Program-made: the position numbers and the translations under genes | Notes under the pieces: generated by a model | Database searches by the model: none | What the model was told of the DNA's origin: nothing | What the model saw: the letters and a program-made list of their open reading frames with translations, nothing else | NCBI RefSeq assembly: GCF_040214835.1 | Contig: NZ_CP157874.1 | Location: 1,306,001 to 1,370,000 of the forward strand | Direction: 5' to 3' | Source of the DNA: Pseudomonas asiatica | GTDB lineage: Bacteria > Pseudomonadota > Gammaproteobacteria > Pseudomonadales > Pseudomonadaceae | Length of the DNA: 64,000 bases | In this document: positions 31,486 to 61,680 of the stretch, piece after piece | Numbering within the stretch: position 1 is the stretch's first letter | How the letters are laid out: each line of letters opens with the position of its first letter

Positions 31486-31570
<85 letters not shown>

Positions 31571-31601: not shown

Positions 31602-32192
31602 GCGACTTCAGGAGGCCGAGCGAAGGGACTGCGGAGGGAGGTGACGGGCATGGATGCCCGTCAAGCGCTGAGGCCCCATGGATGGGGCCTGCAGCGCGTA
31701 CTCCCGGGAGCAGGCCCGTAGCGAGGGGACCCCGGAGCGAAGCGTAGGGGCCGGATGATAGGAGCCAGCGTTTTTTGGTTACTTTTTGTCGCGTTTGACA
31801 AAAAGTGACCCGCCGTAAGGGCGGAAAGGTGATTAAGCGCCACCTTCGAAAATGAATGTTGACCTTGTTGTTGATGCCCACGCTTGAAAGCGAAGAGCGA
31901 AGAGCGGAAAAGTACCGGTCTTGATCTCGCGCATAGTCCATTTACGATGGCGACGCTTACTCACCTTTTCGCCCTTACGGCGAGTCACTTTTTGCCAAAC
32001 GCGGCAAAAAGTAACCAAAAAACGCTGCGCTCCCATCATCCGGCCCCTCCGCTACGCTACGGGGTTCCCTCGCGCCGGTCTTGCTCCCGGGAGTACGCGC
32101 TGCAGGCCCCATCCATGGGGCCTCAGCGCTTGACGGGCATCCATGCCCGTCACCTCCCTCCGCAAGCCCTCTGCTCGGCCTCCTGAAGTCGC
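31602..32192. repeat. Long imperfect palindrome, copy 1
   Basis: The left arm 31602-31843 (242 bp) and right arm 31947-32192 (246 bp) are imperfect reverse complements around a centre of about 103 bp. The arms contain nested perfect hairpins such as TGACGGGCAT-GG-ATGCCCGTCA (31642-31663), AGGCCCCAT-GG-ATGGGGCCT (31671-31690) and a TTTTTG..CAAAAA stem. No gene of credible composition fits. The centre holds two units of the heptamer GAAGAGC (31892-31905). A nearly identical copy lies at 47237-47855. The class is unknown to me by name. Confidence 0.9.
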
Positions 32193-32193
32193 G

Positions 32194-32265
32194 AAGATCA
32201 AGATCAAGATCAAGATCAAGAGCAAGAGCAAGAGCAAGAGCAAGAGCAAGAGCAAGAGCAAGAGC
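32194..32265. repeat. Right hexanucleotide tandem tract of long palindrome copy 1
   Basis: Four copies of AAGATC followed by eight of AAGAGC, in register. The unit is the reverse complement of the GCTCTT unit found on the left side of copy 2. Confidence 0.95.
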
Positions 32266-32462
32266 AAGCAAGTCGGGTGGTGGCTCAATGTGCCAGTGAG
32301 ATGCGCCGCTGCTGTTGCAAAGGTGGCGTGGGGGCGAGACCAAGAATCAGATTTAACACCTTTCTTGTAGGCCGTTTCCCAAAGATACTCTTAACACCTA
32401 TTCTCCGTTGCGCGCGCCAAATGCGGTCTCTAGTCTCGGCATGTCGTTGACCTTCAATGACC

Positions 32463-32593
32463 GGGTTAGCCGCCCGAAATCGTCAGACACCGCAGCTGAG
32501 CAATACCGAGTAATCGGCATTGGCGCCTTATGGCGGCTGTGCGTGGGGCACCTGCGGGTGCGCCGGGTGCCTGACGTCCCGGTCGGCTAACCC
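32463..32593 (+). ncRNA. Candidate structured leader RNA before the DUF3077 gene
   Basis: A multi-stem fold is visible by eye. The closing stem is GGGTTAGCCG/CGGCTAACCC (32463-32472 with 32584-32593). The second stem is CGTCAG-a-CACC/GGTG-c-CTGACG (32481-32491 with 32566-32576). Inside are CAGC/GCTG (32493-32496 with 32536-32539), CCGA-GTAA-TCGG with a GNRA loop (32506-32517), CGCC-TTAT-GGCG (32524-32535), and GGGCACC-type/GGTGC with a TGCG loop (32546-32564). It ends 66 nt before the DUF3077 start. I recall similar sequence before other DUF3077 genes in Pseudomonas. Function is unknown. Confidence 0.65.
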
Positions 32594-32659
32594 ACGTACA
32601 GCTGCCACCATACTGTTTAGCCGCGGTTGGTGGTCGCTTCACTACGACAGGAGCCTTAA

Positions 32660-32923
32660 ATGACCACCGAAGACACGAAATGCACAGTCGGCAAAACCAT
32701 ATTCTTTCAAGGTGAAAACCAGACCCACCCCCTGTTCCGCATCGAACCCGGTATCTCCTGCCAGAACGCCCGCGAACAAGCCTCGGAATTGATCGGCTAT
32801 GCACGGGACCTGACCATCGACGGCCTGATGGAAGACAAGCCAAAGCTGATCTGGGCCGCGCACTACCTTTGCGCCTTGGGCAAAGCGCTGCTGGATGATG
32901 CCGAACTCGGCATGATGCGTTAG
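32660..32923 (+). CDS. DUF3077 protein
   Basis: An 87-residue soluble acidic protein with the DUF3077 pattern: a Thr/Lys-rich N-terminus, THPLFRIEPGISCQNAREQA in the middle and WAAHYLCALGKALLDDAE near the end. DUF3077 genes are present in several copies in P. putida-group genomes, and none has a settled function. CAGGAG lies 8 nt before the ATG. The upstream 66 nt after the structured RNA include CCACC/GGTGG arms (32605-32609 and 32628-32632), so translation may be controlled by mRNA folding. Confidence 0.82.
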   Translation: MTTEDTKCTVGKTIFFQGENQTHPLFRIEPGISCQNAREQASELIGYARDLTIDGLMEDKPKLIWAAHYLCALGKALLDDAELGMMR

Positions 32924-33002: not shown

Positions 33003-33091
33003 GCTCTGTGGGAGCGGGCGCGCCCGCGAACACCGGCGCAGCCGGTGCCAGCCACCGCGTTGGATTCTTCGCGGGCACGCCCGCTCCCACA
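33003..33091. repeat. REP pair, class A (inverted)
   Basis: Inverted copies (33003-33029 and 33064-33091) around an ACCGGCG-cag-CCGGT hairpin, between the DUF3077 gene and the convergent 192-residue gene. Confidence 0.82.
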
Positions 33092-33146
33092 GAAACCACG
33101 TCGCGCTTGCTAACGCGTTCCGGTCCCGCCCCGAGCCGAAGTTGCT

Positions 33147-33867: not shown

Positions 33868-33896
33868 TTGACGCTCCCGGTGCAACCCTCTAACCT
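33868..33896 (+). promoter_or_regulatory. Candidate promoter of the cob operon
   Basis: TTGACG (33868-33873) and TAACCT (33891-33896) are separated by exactly 17 bp, placing a transcript start near 33903, which is where the riboswitch sequence begins. Confidence 0.6.
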
Positions 33897-33903
33897 TCGC
33901 GCG

Positions 33904-34105
33904 TGTTTCAGGTGCCCTGCCAGCCCCGACTGGGCAGGGTGAAACTGGGAAGCCGGTGGGTGCCAGCATGGCGCGATTCCGGCGCTGCCCCCGCAACGGT
34001 AGGTGAGTCGCGGCCGCGCAGGGCCACTGGGTGCCAGCACCCGGGAAGGCGCGCAGGCCTGGGCCAAGGCCCGCTCACAAGCCCGGAGACCGGCCTGATA
34101 CTGCC
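33904..34105 (+). ncRNA. Cobalamin riboswitch
   Basis: The region reads as a standard adenosylcobalamin-type riboswitch: GTTTCAGGTGCC at the 5' side, AAGCCGGTGGGTGCCAGC, CCCCCGCAACGGTAGGTGAG, a GCCACTGGGTGCC stem, and the B12-box-like GCCCGGAGACCGGCCTGATA near 34081-34100. Downstream, GCATCAC-ggaggGTGATGC (34110-34128) could act as the expression platform. It precedes the cobO gene by about 130 nt and should turn off the operon when B12 is sufficient. Confidence 0.93.
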
Positions 34106-34232
34106 AACGGCATCACGGAGGGTGATGCGCGGTGCACCGTGGCGTACGGCCACGGCCCCTGCGCGTTCTCCGTCTGCCCGCCTTTTACCTGTCGCCGCGC
34201 GTTGCCGTGGCGCCAGCCAGCGGAGAACCCTG

Positions 34233-61557: not shown

Positions 61558-61583
61558 GGTGCGTCTCCATCGTTGTGAATGAT

Positions 61584-61632
61584 GGGGCCGTCCCCGGAAT
61601 GGTCACGCGGTGCGTCGTGAGGTCGTCCTCAC
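61584..61632 (-). ncRNA. Guanidine-II (mini-ykkC) riboswitch
   Basis: On the minus strand two hairpins are separated by 21 nt: GTGAGG-ACGA-CCTCAC (61632-61617) and GGGG-ACGG-CCCC (61595-61584). The paired ACGR tetraloops are the defining feature of the guanidine-II class. The second hairpin ends 26 nt before the gdx ATG, a position suited to control of translation. Confidence 0.9.
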
Positions 61633-61680
61633 AGTGGGTGCCATGGTGCACATATGCAGCCCTCTGGGCAAGCCTGTGCA

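Follow-up and report, generated by a model that had tools for sequence, protein, structure and literature searches.

A probable chromosomal C4 antisense-RNA module upstream of a DUF3077 gene in Pseudomonas asiatica

We report that a 131-nt segment (32463-32593) of a 64,000-nt stretch of the Pseudomonas asiatica chromosome (the whole stretch analysed, hereafter the window) is, judging from its family matches and complementarity, a known kind of RNA: a C4 antisense RNA, a type known first from phage P1, together with its own target sites. The segment begins within the target region and ends within C4, before the 3' arm of the main stem is complete. In our estimate there is a probability of about 85% that the locus is a chromosomal C4 antisense-RNA module controlling the DUF3077 gene that follows it, which would give a gene family of unknown function a likely control mechanism. 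While the RNA class is known, the interesting part is its expansion with matched codes: C4 appears to have multiplied in many Pseudomonas species, to dozens per genome in some, and most copies seem to correspond in their code to the beginning of a small gene next to them. Such genus-wide matched C4-gene pairs merit follow-up.

Identity and layout of the RNA

Family membership is established by an Rfam 15 scan of the window, in which C4 antisense RNA (RF01695) matched 32526-32612 over the full model (1-87) with 79.6 bits against a curated cut-off of 45 (E 5.7e-14). The antisense segments a' and b' of this match are complementary to target sites on either side, and one b site lies at the ribosome-binding site. 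A permissive scan of 32400-32700 added c4-a1b1 (RF03163, 'a1, b1 targets of C4 antisense RNA') at 32430-32480, in register upstream of C4; its 34.3 bits (E 3e-7) lie under the gathering score of 46.7, but the segment carries sites complementary to a' and b' of C4. The elements are as follows.

32408-32436, + strand: weak candidate promoter TTGCGC-17-TAGTCT, proposed from the sequence and by analogy with the P1c4 promoter of phage P1
32430-32480, + strand: c4-a1b1, comprising a 5' hairpin (32443-32461, present in the fold) and the a1 target; RF03163 match
32463-32472, + strand: target site a1, GGGTTAGCCG, with core TTAGCCG at 32466-32472; 5' arm of the 10-bp stem
32481-32491, + strand: target site b1, CGTCAGACACC (CGTCAG-A-CACC); 5' arm of the 6+4 stem
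32506-32517, + strand: hairpin CCGA-GTAA-TCGG in the linker, covered by neither Rfam match
32526-32612, + strand: C4 antisense RNA; RF01695 match, 79.6 bits
about 32532-32609, + strand: predicted mature C4 RNA of ~78 nt, by analogy with P1
32548-32561, + strand: hairpin GCACC-TGCG-GGTGC, from the sequence
32566-32576, + strand: antisense segment b' (GGTG-C-CTGACG), in an arm and the loop of C4 hairpin P3; 3' arm of the 6+4 stem
32584-32593, + strand: antisense segment a' (CGGCTAACCC), with CGGCTAA in the C4 linker and pairing that extends to 32593; 3' arm of the 10-bp stem
32616-32623, + strand: target site a2, TTTAGCCG, core TTAGCCG, from its complementarity to a'
32645-32655, + strand: target site b2, CGACAGGAGCC, covering the Shine-Dalgarno sequence AGGAG (32649-32653)
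32660-32923, + strand: DUF3077 gene (87 aa), presumably the one under regulation; Pfam PF11275, 58.6 bits against a cut-off of 21
33005-33093, no strand assigned: inverted repeat 3' of the DUF3077 gene with 26-nt arms (96%), from the sequence

The inverted repeat, which we take to be REP-like, is a possible end of the C4-DUF3077 unit.

The multi-stem structure first described in a sequence-only reading of this DNA is real, and each of its elements is present. Its 10-bp closing stem (32463-32472/32584-32593) is a1 paired with a', and its 6+4 stem (32481-32491/32566-32576; 10 pairs with one A-C mismatch) is b1 paired with b'. The inner hairpins with GTAA and TGCG loops are likewise there, and the 66 nt between 32593 and the ATG at 32660 were counted correctly. 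The assignment is where that reading erred: it took the RNA to belong to no described class, whereas RF01695 and, below its threshold, RF03163 describe the segment, and it had itself said that its idea would fall if an Rfam family of known role matched. A small RNA and a cis-regulatory RNA, both among its suggestions, were apt. Its third suggestion, a riboswitch, found no support, as C4 and c4-a1b1 were the only matches in 32400-32700 at E <= 0.1 and no known aptamer family was among them; riboswitch and new RNA class were both rejected, because the two halves of the segment fall in Rfam antisense and target families.

The window copy has an exact 7-mer complement of a' at both a1 and a2. Its b2 site is imperfect (8 Watson-Crick pairs, one G-U and two mismatches with b'; score 17.5), and the pairing contains no unbroken 7-mer. 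A generic consensus scan returned 0 promoters and 0 terminators. Of the 27 C4 copies of the host genome, 10 had as their top-scoring site a TTGnnn-17-TAnnnT motif that precedes C4 by 84-106 nt; for the window copy the promoter scan preferred TTCCCA-17-TATTCT at 32376-32404.

The same layout is found in phage P1, whose record annotates promoters, a1, b1, c4 (77 nt), a2, b2, icd and ant, and which scored 68.8 bits for C4, 51.0 bits for c4-a1b1 and 35.1 bits, under the cut-off of 50, for isrK in Rfam. Its sites (a1 and a2, both TTGACAG; b1, GTTAGTGC; b2, GTTAGTGA) were all recovered by the complementarity score that we used for the window. Both loci have the order promoter (a candidate in the window), a1b1, c4, a2b2 and gene, and they share the C4 fold, an a-site 7-mer common to a1 and a2, and a b2 at the ribosome-binding site. 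In the model alignment, GG at 32532-32533 and the 3' GCCACC correspond to the ends of P1 C4. If C4 ends at 32609, as predicted, the start codon lies at +51 from the C4 end in the window as in P1, but this exact equality means little because the spacing varies by several nt either way among host-genome copies. The two differ in that the module in the window is chromosomal, is one of 27 copies in its genome and precedes DUF3077 rather than icd, and BLASTP found no similarity between the DUF3077 protein and P1 Icd.

The data show the family of the RNA, its layout, its complementarity with a cognate bias over 92 copies, and its association with DUF3077/DUF6124 genes. Transcription, cleavage by RNase P, repression of translation, a part played by a1b1 and any function of DUF3077 are inferred, the repression mechanism by analogy with P1. 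A C4 RNA released by RNase P and blocking DUF3077 translation would be the most likely mechanism. Transcription from the upstream promoter would yield a leader, a1b1-C4-a2b2, and then the DUF3077 message; C4 would take its three-stem shape, and RNase P would cut its 5' end to give the ~78-nt RNA. This RNA would bind a2 and b2, mask the Shine-Dalgarno sequence of DUF3077 and keep the gene off. The a1 and b1 sites would pair with the same antisense segments and compete with the C4 fold in the precursor, so that a1b1 pairing may tune the amount of C4 released.

Matched codes and association with small genes

All 27 C4 matches in the host genome (5.85 Mb) are above cut-off, and c4-a1b1 matched 31 times at E <= 10, with E < 0.1 in 26 cases and a score above cut-off in 12. 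DUF3077 matched 19 times, 17 of them within 700 nt 3' of a same-strand C4. The two DUF3077 matches at 2193814-2194023 and 5345843-5346022 have no C4 within 700 nt upstream. In many host-genome copies the C4 match is followed after ~42-58 nt by a small ORF, which often begins with a VPDPP-like sequence, and DUF3077 comes second, unlike in the window, where DUF3077 is first after C4. Such VPDPP-like ORFs occur, for example, at loci L013, L016 and L025. Seven small ORFs, six of them of the VPDPP type, were compared with Pfam: four had no match, two matched DUF6124/DUF3077 weakly and one LRV_2 weakly, in each case below cut-off.

Each C4 was scored against every upstream and every downstream region within its own genome, in the host (n=27) and in two genomes picked as single-contig and rich in copies, G010 (n=35) and G018 (n=30); a partial G010 C4 of 45 nt that scored below cut-off was set aside, so that 65 of the 66 in these two genomes were used. 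A coarse matrix of whole-core duplex energies put the cognate region first in 3 of 27 host copies for either target and ranked the window copy's own downstream region 12th of 27; it was replaced by separate ungapped scores for a' and b', and then by a count of exact 7-mers. In 83 of 92 cognate combinations (26/27 in the host, 33/35 in G010 and 24/30 in G018) a 7-mer exactly complementary to a' stood upstream and again no more than 20 nt downstream, against 231 of 2762 non-cognate ones (70/702, 61/1190 and 100/870, respectively). For exact 7-mer complements of b' in the ribosome-binding region the figures were 56/92 (18/27, 24/35, 14/30) against 106/2762 (27/702, 53/1190, 26/870).

The cognate site was best or tied for b':b2 in 18/27 host, 24/35 G010 and 14/30 G018 copies, for a':a1 in 14/27, 12/35 and 9/30, for a':a2 in 6/27, 3/35 and 11/30, and for b':b1 in 5/27, 14/35 and 15/30. 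None of 10000 permutations attained the cognate mean of b':b2, a':a1 or a':a2 in any of the three genomes, or that of b':b1 in G010 and G018, although permutation does not remove kinship and related C4 copies are not independent. The b':b1 pairing is weak in many host-genome copies, and there the cognate mean was reached by 4 and 8 of 10000 permutations in two runs. The codes are not fully private, because some copies share an a' code; the P1 site TTGACAG is common to five host-genome copies. Within a single genome, antisense segments and their targets have repeatedly diverged in concert, which provides a natural data set on RNA-RNA codes.

Across 99 same-genus genomes, drawn from a larger group and including the host, the number of C4 matches follows that of DUF3077 plus DUF6124 (Spearman 0.94, with a p-value that we do not take at face value because the species are related). 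C4 occurs in 92 of them (91 above cut-off), DUF3077 in 76 and DUF6124 in 78, and the seven genomes that lack a C4 match also lack matches to both families. The median is 13 C4s; 39 genomes have at least 20, and for eight genomes the count is a lower bound (at least 39). Among 185 genomes of the class, again including the host, C4 was found in seven and DUF3077 only in the host genome. At closer range we considered the host and four genomes picked as single-contig and C4-rich (G010, G018, G029 and G098): DUF3077 lies within 700 nt 3' of C4 in 24 of 29 cases over all five, and DUF6124 in 88 of 98 over the four, with four genes in both lists. In total 110 of 146 C4s are followed by a match to either family (the host genome being scored for DUF3077 only), compared with a random expectation of ~0.1-0.2% per C4.

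The remark in the sequence-only reading that similar text precedes other DUF3077 genes was borne out as well. A genome-contig scan with the window protein gave 135 relatives, and among the best 80 loci C4 precedes the gene in 73; the exceptions are L138, L171, L180, L185, L186, L187 and L212, and in L138, L185, L186 and L187 less than 240 nt of upstream sequence was examined. Within these 73, C4 and the gene are at least 126 nt apart in 71 and less than 60 nt apart in two (L135 and L181).

It is also conceivable, although we rather doubt it, that a phage immunity RNA has been recast in Pseudomonas as a genome-wide array of antisense locks, largely private and up to dozens in number, each keeping down one member of a diversifying small-protein family (DUF3077, DUF6124 and the 'VPDPP' ORFs), and that a common cue could open many of the locks at once. 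If so, that cue could be phage attack or altered RNase P processing.

Competing folds and alternative readings

At -74 kcal/mol (z -4.79) the 131-nt fold is so stable that 0 of 200 shuffles equalled it. C4 alone (32526-32612; -54.3 kcal/mol) has the three-stem P1/P2/P3 structure of Rfam as its centroid; its minimum free energy (MFE) structure has the same stems and, within the P3 loop, a minor additional pairing. Its P1 stem is paired to 93% over the 92 copies, and at most positions several types of pair occur. The MFE structure of 32440-32612 is the 131-nt fold, whereas that of 32440-32700 is the C4 fold, and in the model the C4 main stem has a probability of 0.08 if the RNA (90 nt upstream plus C4) ends at 32612 but 0.90 with 62 nt more 3' sequence. 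The fold as first drawn is therefore one of two competing folds, since the cut at 32593 drops most of the 3' arm of the main stem. What it depicts is mainly the antisense-target duplex formed in cis, and it may be that other striking predicted folds are likewise antisense duplexes caught in cis. A proposed pairing of CCACC with GGTGG near the start codon, which might have coupled folding to translation, is absent from the longest fold. There the partner of GGTGG (32629-32633) is 32664-32668, within the first codons, and 32605-32607 of CCACC close the C4 main stem.

The duplex of a1b1 with C4 could have a use of its own, as an alternative precursor fold, a decoy or switch, that delays C4 maturation until C4 made from other transcripts occupies a1b1. 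This idea, which is compatible with C4 control of DUF3077, we hold to be a serious but tentative one. The cognate a':a1 pairing that beats all permutations speaks for it, as does the near balance of the two folds, the main-stem probability exceeding 0.5 in 46 of 92 cut precursors (19+14+13 in the three genomes) and in 36 of 92 longer ones (12+15+9). Yet with counts so divided over the 92 copies the competition has no common direction, pairing at b1 is weak in many of them, and thermodynamic models cannot decide the matter.

Action mainly in trans, with the C4 copies conferring immunity against phages or prophages that carry related a and b sites and DUF3077 being incidental, seems improbable to us. 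C4-like DNA does occur in 10 Pseudomonas phage and nine plasmid records (eight from Pseudomonas, one from Azotobacter), and the five host-genome copies with the a site of P1 would fit such a role. However, the code of each copy is matched to the adjacent gene, C4 number tracks DUF3077 plus DUF6124, and both families are missing from the seven C4-less genomes.

Nor is it at all probable that the locus is what is left of a prophage immunity region, decayed and unexpressed. The imperfect b2 is in keeping with decay, and because DUF3077 follows C4 directly here, unlike in the 71 related loci with the long gap, a first ORF may have been lost. Against this, the C4 structure, the a and b sites and the ORF are intact, and they are unchanged in the ortholog from Pseudomonas inefficax (L135) while the linkers differ. 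An ungapped comparison with that locus over 32360-32659 shows nine differing sites, none in a1, b1, C4, a2 or b2 and five between them or just after b2, including a C for T at 32511 that gives the linker hairpin a GCAA loop; this conservation is weak evidence because the pair is highly identical. Finally, a 131-nt fold that itself acts on DUF3077 as a cis-regulatory RNA or riboswitch, sensing a ligand or temperature, is very unlikely despite its stability and its being the MFE structure of 32440-32612, as Rfam describes its halves as antisense RNA and target, the C4 fold wins in the longer leader, b1 pairing is not constant among copies, and 83 of 92 copies repeat the a-site 7-mer at a2, for which a fold confined to one molecule has no need.

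Related systems, the DUF3077 protein and the surrounding window

The C4 antisense RNA family has been reported from Proteobacteria and phages, and c4-a1b1 from gamma-Proteobacteria and phages (Weinberg et al. 2010, PMC2864571). Summaries are available for the C4 mechanism of P1 and P7 (PMC5320573) and for the P1 operon (PMC8198154), and RNase P substrates are covered in PMC12710915. The weak resemblance of the P1 a1b1 region to isrK (RF01394) is not shared by our locus, as isrK matched neither in the window nor in the scan of 32400-32700. In Acinetobacter baumannii, 21 'Group 1' C4-like sRNAs with differing target loops have been described, for which RNA-seq suggests processing at a GG motif (PMC5320573). 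Many chromosomal C4-like copies in one genome are common to A. baumannii and Pseudomonas. The passages of that account drawn on here propose varied targets, name no adjacent gene family and find very limited similarity to P1/P7 in the upstream region (PMC5320573), whereas the Pseudomonas copies have cognate a1, a2 and b2 sites and an adjacent small gene. A literature search, with subscription journals mostly outside its reach, found no paper linking C4 with DUF3077 or DUF6124.

The best of five AlphaFold2 models of the DUF3077 protein (pLDDT 91.7; 75.4 to 90.4 for the other four) consists of a short beta hairpin and two long helices. Foldseek returned nothing for it at E <= 0.001 in PDB or BFVD, and the protein had no match in NCBIfam or PADLOC and no solved relative by profile. 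It matches PHROG 36471 (E 3e-51), a PHROG without function. A DUF3077 pseudogene mutation is mentioned in a report on evolved P. putida (PMC9630843).

A phage origin of DUF3077 was considered and rejected, since tblastn against the phage records gave no match and the 14 IMG/VR loci that contain the family, 12 of which have the gene no more than about 320 nt from the end of their contig and four of which hold a C4, read as host DNA at prophage borders. In 13 of the 80 loci taken as best of the 135 relatives (L136, L139-L142, L160, L162, L165, L166, L168, L188, L193 and L208), the C4-DUF3077 unit lies ~225-260 nt downstream of a tmRNA gene, and eight further loci contain a tRNA on the other strand. 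Given this proximity and the position of DUF3077 near IMG/VR contig ends, some of the units may lie beside prophage attachment sites.

Upstream of the module the window contains a large imperfect palindrome (31602-32192; arms 31602-31765/32029-32192, 92%, and 31766-31854/31939-32027, 90%), flanked on its outside by hexamer tandem arrays of TGCCGT (x10.5, 100% matches, 31487-31549) and AAGAGC (x12.5, 98%, 32194-32268). Rfam TwoAYGGAY matches within its arms (31638-31703 on the + strand, 32091-32156 on the - strand) appear to mark a repeated element and not to be RNAs in their own right, because of this placement and because a similar pair occurs at 47273-47338/47754-47819. Downstream of the module lies a Cobalamin riboswitch (33893-34112, 92.7 bits), and a guanidine-II riboswitch was matched at 61583-61634 on the minus strand (44.5 bits).
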